Origin: Stentor roeselii
Lineage: Eukaryota; Ciliophora; Heterotrichea; Heterotrichida; Stentoridae
Assembly: GCA_006503475.1 (NCBI GenBank)
Contig: RSEH01000105.1
Span: 1-64,000 of the forward strand
Direction of reading: 5' to 3'
Length of the DNA: 64,000 nt
A model generated the notes under the pieces. That model was not told where the DNA came from. It saw nothing but the letters and a program-made list of their open reading frames with translations, and ran no database searches. The translations under genes and the position numbers were made by a program. Position 1 is the stretch's first letter. Each line of letters opens with the position of its first letter. Below are positions 13,656 to 44,563 of this stretch, one piece after another.

Positions 13656-14129
13656 ATGGAAAGAAATACTTTGTTTTTCTATGATCAGCCTTCACAGAGG
13701 GTTAGACCTGAAAATGTTTTTTTAAATAACTTTTTTGAATCGCCTTTTGTCTTACATGGAAAAGAATTTAAAACCGTTGAGCATTTCTACCAATCCAGTA
13801 AGTTTTCAGGCGAGTACTACGAAAACATCCGCAAAACAAGTACACCAGACGAGGCCAAAAAGCTAGCTCGGAAGCTTCCATTCAACTTACAAGAATGGGA
13901 AGAAAGAAAAGACCAGGTGATGAAAGAAGGACTTTTTGCAAAATTCGAGCAGAACCCAGAATTAAAACAACGTTTAATTGAAACAGGAAATTCACGACTA
14001 GTAGAAGACAGTCCCAGAGATGCTTATTGGGGAGGAGTGGTTGAAGGGTCATGCAATCGACTAGGTCAGATGTTGGAAGAACTGCGAGAAAAATACAAAA
14101 GTGAGGAAAAATTAAGTTACTTTAATTAG
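13656..14129 (+). CDS. NADAR-domain protein (YbiA/RibX-like N-glycosidase)
   Basis: A 157-residue single-domain protein. Blocks typical of NADAR are seen: FLNNFFESPFVLHGKEFKTVEHFYQSSKF, then ARKLPFNLQEWEERKDQVMKEGLFAKFEQNPELKQRLIETG, and the C-terminal DAYWGGVVEGSCNRLGQMLEELR. Bacterial and plant relatives hydrolyse the N-glycosidic bond of early riboflavin intermediates, and others act on ADP-ribose-like molecules. The Glu in VEHFYQ and the D-x-YWG motif are present. Substrate here is unknown. It precedes NSUN6 by 17 nt on the same strand. Codons switch from T-ending to C/A-ending near 13790. Confidence 0.88.
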   Translation: MERNTLFFYDQPSQRVRPENVFLNNFFESPFVLHGKEFKTVEHFYQSSKFSGEYYENIRKTSTPDEAKKLARKLPFNLQEWEERKDQVMKEGLFAKFEQNPELKQRLIETGNSRLVEDSPRDAYWGGVVEGSCNRLGQMLEELREKYKSEEKLSYFN

Positions 14130-14146
14130 AGGAATTAATTTTATAT

Positions 14147-15360
14147 ATGGAAGAGTTTTTTATCAATAAGTACGGACCTCAGGCTTTGGAAGTACTTTCA
14201 ACTCCTCCTATGTTTTCAAGCATCAGGGTCAATGTTTTGAAGATTGATGTTCTGAGTGCTGTTGAAGATATTAGAAAGATCTATCCTGAAATGGAAGTCA
14301 CTGTGCATCATTTGATTCCTGATTTAATCTTGATTAGGTCTCAAGGACCTTTTGAACATCAACCTGTTGGAATAGAGGTTTATGTGGATTATAAATGTGG
14401 AGAGGCAGTTCTGCGAGGTTCCCACATCTACAGTCCAGGAATCCTAGGCAGTTCAAGTTCATGTAATAAAAACTCAGTTGACCGAGGCACTTCAATCTCA
14501 GTCTTCGCAATCGAAAAATCTCTTCCACGAGGATTCAAATCTCAAATCTCATCATCAAAATACTTCTTAGGTAACGGTATTTCCCACCAATCACGAAAAG
14601 AAATAACAACCAACAACAAAGGTCTAGCACTGACTCTAACATCTCCAAAATGGAAGATGCCGAGTTTCTCAAGTCTTTCACCATCCTTATACTACCCTCA
14701 AAACATCGGCAGTGCAAGTGTAGGCCACATCTTAAGAGTAAAGCCCAATCAGCCAAGTTCCTCAGACCAGATCCTTGACATGTGCGCAGCTCCAGGTGGA
14801 AAAACATCTCATTTATCAACATTAATGAACAACCAAGGCTCAATAACCGCCTGTGACAAGTCATCATCACGACTAGATTCACTTAAAAGTAAAAAAAATT
14901 AGAACACCTTCAAGACTGGGACGTGAAAAACGTGGAAGTCAAAAAAATGAACTCAACAAAAGCTGAAGAAATTTTCGGCTTCGAGGTCTTCGACAAGGTG
15001 TTGCTGGACGCGCCTTGCACAGGACTTGGCCAACGTCCTCGTTTGAGTTACGCCCGGGTTAACATCAAGCAAACCGCCGGGTACTCAAGGGCTTTGTTGG
15101 TCTCTGCCTGCAGGGTGTTAAAAGTATCAGGACTTCTACTATACTCAACCTGCAGTATAAGTGACGAAGGTAATTTTTCCTTAGAAAATGATGAAAACAT
15201 CGCCTGGGCCTTACAACATCTTCCTCTAACCCTCTTAGAACAGCCTTTCTACCTCGGCGAAAAAGGTCTCGCAGGCCTCACACAGACCATTCCAGCAATG
15301 ACTGACTCCGGTTTTTTCATCGCCTTGCTACGCAAGACAAGTACCATCGAGCATTTATAA
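14147..15360 (+). CDS. NSUN6: tRNA cytosine-5 methyltransferase NSUN6-like, with apparent 14-nt intron
   Basis: RNA m5C methyltransferase with an inserted PUA domain, as in NSUN6, which methylates C72 of certain tRNAs. The first frame holds the N terminus, the PUA-like part (about 75-190, GEAVLRGSHIYSPGI) and SAM motif ILDMCAAPGGKTSHL, then stops at 14902. The second frame holds LLDAPCTGLGQRP (Cys 286) and YSTCSIS (Cys 331), the two active-site cysteines. Both parts belong to one protein of 399 residues only if 14 nt (14889-14902) are removed. The family alignment needs both halves, so the join is well founded. Codons switch to C/A-ending near 14420. Stop TAA lies 29 nt before Rab2. Confidence 0.9.
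14889..14902 (+). other. candidate 14-nt intron in NSUN6
   Basis: GTAAAAAAAATTAG, phase 1, A at -6. The SAM-motif half and the catalytic-Cys half are in frames that only a 14-nt (or 17, 20, 26..) removal reconciles. A lost A in the A8 run of the assembly would also explain it. Confidence 0.65.
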
Positions 15361-15389: not shown

Positions 15390-16010
<621 letters not shown>

Positions 16011-34856: not shown

Positions 34857-37826
34857 TTAAATATATTTAAGTAACTTTTCAATCTTATACTTTTGGGAAC
34901 TTTGAAGTAATTCATAAACCAGCTCTAGTGGCTTTTCCTCAAGAACTAATTCTAAAATCTTTCTTATCTTTGGAAGAGTTGTTGAAGAGCAAAGATCGGA
35001 AAATGAAATATGAACAAAAAAGACGATGATTTTATCACTTTTCACTAAAATTTGAAGATGGTTTACTACCATGTCAGCGAATAAATCATGAACTTCTTGA
35101 GCGTATCGTTGATGAGTAGTGACTGGTAAGAAGCTAGCCCACCAAGGTACAATAATATTTCCATTCAAACATTCAAATTTAAACTTGATAATAAACCCAA
35201 TAGTCACAACAGTCAAATCTCTAATTTTCTTATCCTTCAAGTTTTTCGAGTCCTTAACCGAATTAAGCAAATTTTCCAAAGACCCAAGCAAGACAGCAGC
35301 AATTTTAACAAACACAGCCGGATGAATAAATTCAGAAATAGCCCAAAATCCCTGCAAGCTATTTTTTTTTACACAATGATCAGCATGATTCAAGTAAAAC
35401 ACGAATATTTTAGTAATTTCTTCAACTCTTTCATTTAAAAGCATTCTTCCAACACATTTTAAGATAGTTTTAATCAAGATCAATGCAAAAACAACATCAT
35501 CCAAATCAGCATTAGGGCCAAGTGGGGCTAAAATATTTGCATAAATGATTTCAATGATGCAAGAACCAGCCTGGCCATTTGACAAAGCTTCAAAAATAAG
35601 CTGCGCGGCTTGTTCAAGGTCTTCAGTCTTCCTGCCCTTTAGCTTCGCAAGACTTTTCCAAGTGACTTGCCCCATGAACTTCATTTCTTCATTAGTTAGG
35701 AACTCGTAACCTGGCGCTGCGATTATGTGACTCGCGCTCTTCAACATTTCTGATAAACATTCTACTTCTTCTTCTTTTTCGCAGAGGCTCCAGATTTCTT
35801 TCAAAAAACCTCGAGCGAATATTACTAGGATTGAGAAGAAGTCCTGGTTACCACTTTCTTTTATTACGTCAACTAGAGCACTTGCTATGTGGACTACCAG
35901 GATTTTTAAGGTTTCGGTTAAATCGGCTTTCATTAAATAGAGAACGAGCTCTGAAGTTTTTTCTATATATTGTAAAAACCCTCCTCTAGTTGAATCAATA
36001 AGTGAAAGAATGACTTCCAAATACTCTTCAAGTTGGTTGATCATCATTTTCGAAACACTTTGGATAAGTTCTGGCATAACGAAAGGTAAAAACATGGTGA
36101 AGCTTGATTTTAGATACTTACTGAGACTAATCAAACTCTTGAAGCAGCACGATTGGATAGTTTTATCATTCGAGCTCTGAAAAAATTGAATAATTTGAAT
36201 GTATTCAGGAGCAACATTAAGGAAATCAGCCCTAGGAATGATTTTCCTTAACATCAAAAGTGTCTCGAAAGCCTTGACCTTCACATTATTCACGGATTCT
36301 TTAATCAAACTATTCAAAACTGTGAAAATTTCTGGAAAAAAGTTAGAAATATTTTCCTTATTAATCAAAAATGCCAAGTTCAATACTTCTAAAGCTTCAA
36401 AAGTGCAGAACTTGTGAGTCAAGCAAGGAATAATCAGCGGAAGTAGGTCAGGTGAGTACTTAATAGAAACCTCAGAATCATTAATCTTCAAAAAATTCTG
36501 ACAAGTTTTCAATGCAATTAACCTGACCAAATCATTAGAATCACTGAGACATCTGAACAAAATAGGAAGTGCAGAATGATGTAAACGATTCTGAAACTCT
36601 TTATCATTAACCTTCACCAATTTTTTCACAATTTTGCAAGAAGCCCACCTAAGTGTGAAACATTCATGCAATACAAAAGTATGAACAGCATTAATAACAT
36701 CCACAATTTTTTCAGTTCCATAAACAAATCCAGCAGTTTGAGCAAGAATAACCAAAGCAGCGAAATAAGCATTTTCATTTCTTTGTTCATACAAAACATT
36801 CTCAGCGAGTTTCAAAAAATAGTCAACAACGCTTTCTCCAATGATTTCAATCATTTTCTTAATGAAAGTGATGAGATGTTTCTGAAGACTCGTCGCAGTT
36901 TCTTCATGCAATTCGATATTCCCCTGGGTAAGTACTTCAAAAATCCTTTCACAAGTCCCAGCAAGGATATTTTTTTTGTTAAAAACGAGGCTCATGTGTT
37001 TTTCAATGAGAATTATGATGAACTCGAGCAAGTTCACCTTCAGGTTCTGACTCGTCACTTTTCCAGTCAAAGACTCGACAAAAGAATAACAAAGGTTCAA
37101 ATCAGTCCGAAAGTAAAAAGGCTCCGTTTCAGCAAGTTCAATCAAACTTTTAACGCAAGGCTCTCCATGCTCTAAACAGTTTATACACAAAAACTGGACT
37201 GAATTCAGCAAAGGTTTTAAAATTTCGCTGTAGTTTAACGTCTCTGAAGTGTTTATCACTGAGATAAACACAGTGAAAGACTGAATCGTAGCTCTTCGAA
37301 GATCTGAATAAGGACTTTCAATCGTTTTCATAAAGATTTTAATCAATTTTTCTTTTAGTTTCGAAAAAGTCTCTGCGAAATAAGGAACGATTTCTGAAAG
37401 GATCAGAAAACCACTAAATTTCTGGAACAGGTTTCGAGATTTCAGTGATTTCAGAAGAAAAGTTAAGAAATTTGACCACTTTTCTCCGGTTTCTGATTGG
37501 ATGATGAAGATCGCCAGGTCTGATATCACGTAACTTGCGTTTCTTGCGATGATGAAGGATGAGATCGAAGAAAAGATATTCAAAAGTAGAGACTTTAGGG
37601 TGGTCTTTGATTGGATGTCCAGGTGTGGCCAGGACTGAGATAAAGACTGACGGAGGATTACACAGCTGAGAAGCTTAAGGTTGTCTTGCTGGGCTGATTG
37701 AAATGTGAAGATTAAAGACTGGTAAAAATCGAAAGGGTTTTTGCTTTTTAATTGGTCGAGTTGGCATTCTGATGACTCTCTGGAAGATTTATCCTGGCTT
37801 AGTAAGTTATTTAGTAAACCCTCCAT
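34857..37826 (-). CDS. importin-beta family nuclear transport receptor (IPO5-like)
   Basis: A 989-residue all-helical HEAT-repeat protein. The N terminus (MEGLLNNLLSQDKSSRESSECQLDQLKSK then FQSAQQDNLKLLSCVILRQSL) matches the importin-N pattern of karyopherins that bind Ran-GTP. Repeats follow throughout, for example YSDLRRATIQSFTVF, RLIALKTCQNFLKI and CVKKNSLQGFWAISEF. Size and the latter blocks resemble importin-5/Kap121 or importin-4. It should carry ribosomal proteins, histones or other cargo into the nucleus. Single frame, stop TAA, no intron needed. The exact orthologue is uncertain. Confidence 0.85.
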   Translation of the reverse strand: MEGLLNNLLSQDKSSRESSECQLDQLKSKNPFDFYQSLIFTFQSAQQDNLKLLSCVILRQSLSQSWPHLDIQSKTTLKSLLLNIFSSISSFIIARNASYVISDLAIFIIQSETGEKWSNFLTFLLKSLKSRNLFQKFSGFLILSEIVPYFAETFSKLKEKLIKIFMKTIESPYSDLRRATIQSFTVFISVINTSETLNYSEILKPLLNSVQFLCINCLEHGEPCVKSLIELAETEPFYFRTDLNLCYSFVESLTGKVTSQNLKVNLLEFIIILIEKHMSLVFNKKNILAGTCERIFEVLTQGNIELHEETATSLQKHLITFIKKMIEIIGESVVDYFLKLAENVLYEQRNENAYFAALVILAQTAGFVYGTEKIVDVINAVHTFVLHECFTLRWASCKIVKKLVKVNDKEFQNRLHHSALPILFRCLSDSNDLVRLIALKTCQNFLKINDSEVSIKYSPDLLPLIIPCLTHKFCTFEALEVLNLAFLINKENISNFFPEIFTVLNSLIKESVNNVKVKAFETLLMLRKIIPRADFLNVAPEYIQIIQFFQSSNDKTIQSCCFKSLISLSKYLKSSFTMFLPFVMPELIQSVSKMMINQLEEYLEVILSLIDSTRGGFLQYIEKTSELVLYLMKADLTETLKILVVHIASALVDVIKESGNQDFFSILVIFARGFLKEIWSLCEKEEEVECLSEMLKSASHIIAAPGYEFLTNEEMKFMGQVTWKSLAKLKGRKTEDLEQAAQLIFEALSNGQAGSCIIEIIYANILAPLGPNADLDDVVFALILIKTILKCVGRMLLNERVEEITKIFVFYLNHADHCVKKNSLQGFWAISEFIHPAVFVKIAAVLLGSLENLLNSVKDSKNLKDKKIRDLTVVTIGFIIKFKFECLNGNIIVPWWASFLPVTTHQRYAQEVHDLFADMVVNHLQILVKSDKIIVFFVHISFSDLCSSTTLPKIRKILELVLEEKPLELVYELLQSSQKYKIEKLLKYI

Positions 37827-43540: not shown

Positions 43541-44563
43541 TTACTCTAAAAGTTCCTTCGACTGGTCCTCCAGATGTCTCAAAACACTGCAAATAGTCCC
43601 TTTCCACTCACTCATTCTTTTATTCAACAAAGAAATCCGCTCCGCATCTAGCACTCGAGGCTGAAGCCACCCGACAGACACGACCTGTTCAACTTCATCG
43701 ATTTCTCCTTTAATAAGCCCAAGAGCCATCGCTTTCATAACAAGATGTTCCACATCTTTTCCAGTGACATTCATCACAACAGCAAGTTCTTGAAAACTGA
43801 GATTTCTTTTATTTCCAACAAAGATGTATTCAAGCATTGCTAAAATTCTAGTTTTTCTTACAAATGCTTCAACTCTAAGTTCTTCTGGCAAATTTGCAAA
43901 TTTTTCTTCGATTTCTTTGACCTTTCCCGCATTGCAAAGATGAATCAAGGTGTAAAGCCAGGCATTTTTAGAGGTTTCGAGACTTTTCAGCACTGGCTGG
44001 TTGATAAGCTCGCCGAGGTTGTAAATGCTTTCAGCGAGTAAGACTGAAACAGCCAGTCGATAAGCGAGGCCTTCAGCGTCTTTCACTTCAGACTGCGGGG
44101 TGTATGCCAGGTACTGAAGAGAATATTTGTAAAAAAGCTCGTAGTTCGATTTGAGTTGGTAAAGTTGCGCTAAAGTCCCGTAGAGGTGAGAGTAAATCAC
44201 ACTTTCTAAGTCATTTTGACGCTCTACCTGCTTTTGAACGTCTTCTAGAAGTGACTGCGCCTCTGATATGCTCTGGACTCGCAAGTACTGAGCACTTTTC
44301 GCTATTGACAGGAGGATTGAAGCTTGCTCGTCGATTATTGACAAGTTGTCCAGGAATACAAAAGCTGTTGTTGGGTCTTGCACCTCGATCGCCTTCATTG
44401 CTAGAAGAACTAGCTTCGTCTTGTTAAGACGTTCGTGGAATTGGGTGATCGCTGACCAGATAGAGCTTATTGTTGTGCTGTCTAGTTTTAATAAGGCTTC
44501 TGTTAGCTCGTGCCAAAGACGTTTTTCGTGAAGTACTCGGATCTCTTGAGGAAGGGATTCCAT
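43541..44563 (-). CDS. PSMD13: 26S proteasome regulatory subunit RPN9 (PSMD13)
   Basis: A 340-residue lid subunit of the 19S regulatory particle. The N-terminal half is helical-repeat sequence (EKRLWHELTEALLKLDS, AFVFLDNLS, LYGTLAQLYQLKSNYELFYKYSLQYL), followed by the SVLLAESIYNLGELINQPVLKSLE block and a C-terminal PCI domain (about 235-320) with NLSFQELAVVMNVTGKDVEHLVMKAMALGLIKGEIDEV. It ends with a coiled helix. It is slightly shorter than the human protein. Start ATG at 44561-44563, stop TAA. Single exon. Confidence 0.93.
   Translation of the reverse strand: MESLPQEIRVLHEKRLWHELTEALLKLDSTTISSIWSAITQFHERLNKTKLVLLAMKAIEVQDPTTAFVFLDNLSIIDEQASILLSIAKSAQYLRVQSISEAQSLLEDVQKQVERQNDLESVIYSHLYGTLAQLYQLKSNYELFYKYSLQYLAYTPQSEVKDAEGLAYRLAVSVLLAESIYNLGELINQPVLKSLETSKNAWLYTLIHLCNAGKVKEIEEKFANLPEELRVEAFVRKTRILAMLEYIFVGNKRNLSFQELAVVMNVTGKDVEHLVMKAMALGLIKGEIDEVEQVVSVGWLQPRVLDAERISLLNKRMSEWKGTICSVLRHLEDQSKELLE

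Follow-up and report, generated by a model that had tools for sequence, protein, structure and literature searches.

Can a spliceosome that otherwise uses introns of 15 nt almost exclusively also remove one of 14 nt? The question is raised by a segment of 14 nt as assembled, GTAAAAAAAATTAG (14889..14902, plus strand), in an RNA cytosine-C5 methyltransferase gene of the NSUN6 type in the ciliate Stentor roeselii. It lies in the window analysed here, a stretch of 64,000 nt. The segment could be a true intron of 14 nt, an ordinary intron of 15 nt from which the assembly has lost a base, or no working intron at all.

The introns of this genome resemble those of Stentor coeruleus, which the available excerpts of PMC9505925 describe as GU..AG, AU-rich and beginning with GUA; their branch A is usually the tenth or eleventh base, and the tenth in the majority of those of 15 nt. 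In that species 8,173 of 8,806 annotated introns have 15 nt and the remaining 633 have 16 nt (PMC9505925, in excerpt). The differences are the assembled length of GTAAAAAAAATTAG and the single 16-nt intron called in 309 kb of the present genome. For heterotrichs overall, about 95% of introns are given as 15 bp and the others as 16 (PMC11441545, in excerpt), and Blepharisma stoltei similarly has introns of predominantly 15 and 16 bp (PMC9942806, in excerpt). Mikrocytos shares very short introns and a narrow length range, although its introns are longer (16-17 nt) and its lineage is unrelated (PMC10245619, in excerpt). An intron of 14 nt, which we regard as possible but unlikely, would be one base under the shortest heterotrich class in the excerpts of PMC9505925 and PMC11441545. 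A literature search for phrases on 14-nt introns returned nothing relevant, a result that holds for those phrases and that library.

Reading frames around position 14889

The methyltransferase gene occupies 14147..15360 on the plus strand and has five exons, encoding 384 aa with all four of its tiny introns out. It is flanked by a gene for a small protein at 13656-14129, whose product we take to be NADAR-like, and by a gene at 15390-16010, presumably for a Rab-type GTPase. From the ATG at 14147 the upstream frame runs to a TAG at 14900-14902, which is also the 3' end of GTAAAAAAAATTAG. The downstream frame, which contains both cysteine motifs, is one base off and is open only past a TAA at 14890-14892. 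Frame reading thus bears out the original prediction that the two halves of the methyltransferase lie in frames one base apart. A crossing from one to the other is possible only at 14893-14899, and the two flanking stops confine any correction to that stretch.

The predicted 14-mer is indeed present at 14889-14902 and contains a run of exactly eight A's at 14891..14898 (plus strand). All GT..AG pairs of 8-120 nt with a GT from 14700 on were tested for restoring one open frame. GTAAAAAAAATTAG, whose removal yields such a frame, is the shortest of these pairs and the sole one under 26 nt, as had been proposed; the next is a 26-nt pair at 14889-14914. It begins with GTAA and ends with a YAG (TAG), and position 10 is an A both in the segment and in its 15-nt version. 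The heterotrich length of 15 or 16 nt is reached only with one more A. A single DNA search of the assembly turned up the site only once, and the exact exon pattern had 0 viral and 0 prokaryote matches in collections that may omit this genome or near ones.

The genetic code looks standard, with TGA as a rare stop. Modelled genes ended in TAA or TAG in 111 of 116 cases and in TGA in 5 of 116, and three modelled genes have an in-frame TGA near the gene end. With TGA treated as open, long frames contain 63 TGA among 49,934 codons, compared to 440 TGG. A code of this kind would differ from that of Blepharisma, in which UGA encodes tryptophan (PMC9942806, in excerpt).

Homology across the candidate splice junction

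The spliced protein contains an RsmB/F-type methyltransferase domain (PF01189, 147.6 bits; cut-off 27). Its best solved relatives, which align over nearly the whole length, are NSUN6 5wwq (226.9 bits) and 5zvd (187.6 bits); we take the former to be human NSUN6 and the latter to be an archaeal protein. That NSUN6 is the best match of the spliced protein supports the NSUN6-type identity that had been assigned together with an intron at 14889. Both cysteine motifs, LLDAPCTG and YSTCS, align to NSUN6, and their cysteines are presumably the catalytic ones. At the N-terminus there is a weak match to the PUA family (PF01472, 19.6 bits, under the cut-off of 24.8), in a region that is covered by the NSUN6 alignment.

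Splicing at 14889-14902 would join ..CTTAAAA to AACACCTT and produce ..SRLDSLKKHLQDWDVKNVEV.., and the alignment to 5zvd is gapless over this junction. The distance from the intron site to the catalytic motif is greater in 5wwq than in the Stentor gene. With the segment removed, the product scores higher against 19 of 24 PDB sequences. The mRNA might instead retain the segment, which would yield LKSKKKLEHLQDWD; the reading frame would then be maintained either through -1 slippage along the A's or because the DNA has a ninth A. The frame is open in that version, and the other five of the 24 PDB sequences (NSUN6 twice, NSUN2 three times) prefer it by 1.5-4.7 bits, as against a PF01189 score that falls from 147.6 to 140.0 bits on retention by either route. 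Homology therefore favours removal of GTAAAAAAAATTAG, though not unanimously: NSUN6, nominally the nearest relative, is one of those that prefer retention. Retention would moreover make a full intron motif at the sole possible crossing point a coincidence, and we consider it very unlikely.

It is likewise highly doubtful that the eight A's reflect a real deletion after which the 14-mer is not properly spliced, leaving either a damaged copy or allele, or a gene that uses the 26-nt splice to 14914. The 26-nt version is open, and other modelled exons retain 14-mers of the same motif, as described below. Against this, the assembly yielded one copy of the gene, whose frame is otherwise open, and the 26-nt version has the lowest PF01189 score of the three (137.2 bits).

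Intron lengths, exonic copies and the run of A's

Intron lengths were surveyed in 309 kb, comprising the window and 245 kb of the same genome, using a gene model that permits introns of 12-30 nt. Of the 54 introns called, 28 have 15 nt (some of them from low-scoring genes), one has 16, three have 14 and 22 have other lengths; the last are assumed to be joins between genes. Among the three 14-nt calls only GTAAAAAAAATTAG lies within a single gene, as one of the others fuses a neighbouring gene to the NSUN6-type gene and one sits at a contig end. Furthermore, it is the only one of the 25 calls of neither 15 nor 16 nt to have an A/T run of at least 8 in or near the intron. The eight clear 15-nt introns originally counted in the window are compatible with the six found by the gene model and the three found by homology in the NSUN6-type gene. 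In a previous model, which had no term for the branch point, every one of the 17 introns of 15 nt had GTAA and an A at position 10. Counts of GTAA..A..YAG in the 309 kb peak at 15 nt only (19, 23, 16, 17, 47, 18, 15, 15, 18 and 18 for lengths of 11-20 nt), and the reversed control gives 28, 33, 25, 23, 23, 37, 22, 39, 22 and 33 over the same lengths.

Across the genome (44.4 Mb, 522 contigs) there are 6,239 occurrences of the intron motif with a length of 15 nt, 1,826 with 14 nt and 1,813 with 17 nt, with reversed-pattern controls of 3,924, 4,069 and 4,212 in the same order. The excess at 14 nt over 17 nt is 13 +/- 60, corresponding to at most about 131 introns, or 3% of the approximately 4,400 implied at 15 nt; scaled to the controls it is 75 +/- 71, or at most about 213 (4.8% of the 15-nt class). 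When at least eight A's follow the GT, the motif is found 40 times at 14 nt (control 32), 90 times at 15 nt (control 33) and 36 times at 16 nt (control 57). Eight of the 40 A8-type 14-mers (GT-A8-N-YAG) were read in context, one of those at the edge of its stretch. The exact string GT-A8-TTAG has six sites, compared to four in the control, and by eye only the copy in the window acts as an intron.

A ninth A in the run at 14891-14898 would make the segment identical to the string GT-A9-TTAG, which has seven exact sites in the genome and none in the reversed control. All seven fit as introns in open frames; five would gain a stop if the string were kept, and the other two are open either way. 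One of the sites has an in-frame stop upstream, formed by the last bases of a further 15-nt motif, GTAAAAGGCACATAG. That the identical 15-mer is intron-like at every site, even with two of the seven open either way, speaks against retention at 14889.

Exons provide a further view of 14-mers. In 93 modelled coding sequences, three 14-mers with the full consensus are kept in coding exons, and their removal would lead to a stop within 5 to 13 codons. The first, GTAAGAAAAACTAG (43848..43861, minus strand), lies in a gene for the proteasome subunit RPN9/PSMD13 (43541-44563), assigned through its Pfam PCI domain and its solved relatives; there is a one-residue gap to solved RPN9 at this 14-mer, and a stop would follow its removal after 5 codons. 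The second, GTAAAAAAAAATAG (35359..35372, minus strand), lies in a 989-codon open gene known from the gene model only, with a stop after 8 codons. The third is GTAAATTCAATCAG, in a gene that presumably encodes WD40-like repeats. Three such 14-mers compare with 2.7 expected from synonymous shuffling. They hint, without being decisive, that a 14-mer of full consensus is not spliced automatically, as even at 15 nt the motif may be insufficient for splicing. A fructose-bisphosphatase gene, for example, scores about the same with its 15-mer of the motif kept (164.9) or removed (165.1), and so does a kinase gene with or without a 15-mer (75.8 in both cases).

Modelled coding exons totalling 155 kb, drawn from the window and from L008-L027 and L035-L040, contain 43 GTA..AG pairs of 14 nt in sense, against about 75 by length matching, as would be seen if segments of 14 nt could be spliced. 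The sense ratio is the lowest among 2,391 comparable tests, and the antisense numbers are 79 and 88. The depletion is, however, independent of an A at -6, and the 14-mers of full consensus show no shortage. A general avoidance of 14-nt GTA..AG by exons was tried as a genome-wide prediction fixed beforehand, at about 520 versus 690, and fell short, with a result of 742 versus 799 (z -1.45).

The assembly looks sound at homopolymers, which speaks against a lost base. Modelled coding sequence contains 82 A/T runs of at least 8, 25 of which are of at least 9. None of 23 frameshift calls made under a permissive penalty fell at the 82 runs when checked by eye within 15 bases, so that the rate per run is at most about 3.6%. 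No odd-length intron was called near these runs except GTAAAAAAAATTAG, and an A8-bearing intron at C10:64096 was called at 15 nt.

If the eight A's are real, the spliceosome would remove a 14-nt intron, with either a 9-nt loop and a 5-nt tail or a 10-nt loop and a 4-nt tail; such an intron would have originated from one of 15 nt by loss of an A. The otherwise open gene with both cysteine motifs, the complete motif and the 0 frameshifts called at long coding runs are in keeping with this, and the genome-wide counts are compatible with a genuine class of up to about 131 introns, or 213 when control-scaled. The local dip of 14-nt GTA..AG in exons also fits. Against it stand an unclear genome-wide excess, the full-consensus 14-mers kept in modelled exons (one of them in RPN9), the weak outcome of the genome-wide exon test and heterotrich papers that give lengths of 15 and 16 nt (PMC9505925 and PMC11441545, both in excerpt). 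A true 14-nt intron, as originally predicted, is then not the likelier reading, as there is no clear genome-wide excess at this length, and the alternative that the prediction itself had named, a base lost from the A8 run, fits the genome-wide data better.

The segment at 14889-14902 is most likely a 15-nt intron from which one A was dropped in the assembly, to which we assign a probability of about 0.58. This reading is preferred because there is no clear class of 14-nt introns, seven A9 twins exist, the shortfall falls in a homopolymer and exonic 14-mers are left unspliced. We judge the prior rates to be similarly small for a real but rare intron of 14 nt and for an assembly error that hit a single intron among some dozens rich in A. 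Under the preferred reading, cellular DNA would have nine A's, of which the assembly dropped one, and the NSUN6-type gene would contain an ordinary 15-nt spliceosomal intron of the tiny heterotrich type, GT-A9-TTAG, branching at the A in position 10 and leaving a tail of 5 nt. Whatever its length, GTAAAAAAAATTAG is very probably an intron that works or once worked, a status assigned from frame, motif and homology, and it is probably removed from the transcript.

Either outcome would be informative. A real intron of 14 nt would lower the known size limit and, by showing that the loop or the tail can shrink by one, would be a direct test of spliceosome geometry. If the length is not real, the case is a caution that record-short introns in A runs need reads.

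Hidden in-frame introns of 15 nt

As 15 is a multiple of three, introns of this length can preserve the frame and go unseen unless homology or RNA reveals them. The NSUN6-type gene appears to contain three of them on the plus strand, GTAATAAAAACTCAG (14463..14477), GTAAAGCCCAATCAG (14738..14752) and GTAATTTTTCCTTAG (15170..15184), each in frame and without a stop. Each is a 15-nt GTAA..YAG stretch that coincides with a five-residue insertion in the NSUN6 alignments, and on its removal the gap closes. With all four segments out, the score rises from 202.2 to 226.9 bits against 5wwq and from 166.4 to 187.6 against 5zvd; jointly, GTAATAAAAACTCAG, GTAAAGCCCAATCAG and GTAATTTTTCCTTAG are worth 24.7 bits against 5wwq. 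The weak PUA match (19.5-19.6 bits, below the cut-off) is found in all five versions of the protein without GTAATAAAAACTCAG and in none of the three with it. Keeping GTAAAGCCCAATCAG lowers the PF01189 score from 147.6 to 144.6 bits (-3.0), and keeping GTAATTTTTCCTTAG lowers it to 136.8 bits (-10.8). GTAATTTTTCCTTAG has a C at position 10 and no A from position 5 to 13, yet homology backs its removal; its branch site may be unusual, or one base may be a variant.

Stop-free in-frame introns of 15 nt escape frame-based annotation, and the NSUN6-type gene alone hid three. In the 155 kb of exons, 15-nt GTA..AG pairs with an A at -6 are in excess (40 versus 26), pointing to further hidden introns. 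In a gene of the CTP-transferase family on the minus strand (C417:145989), the in-frame 15-mer GTAATCTTCATGCAG is probably another hidden intron, as the Pfam score of 209.7 bits increases to 214.4 bits when it is taken out.
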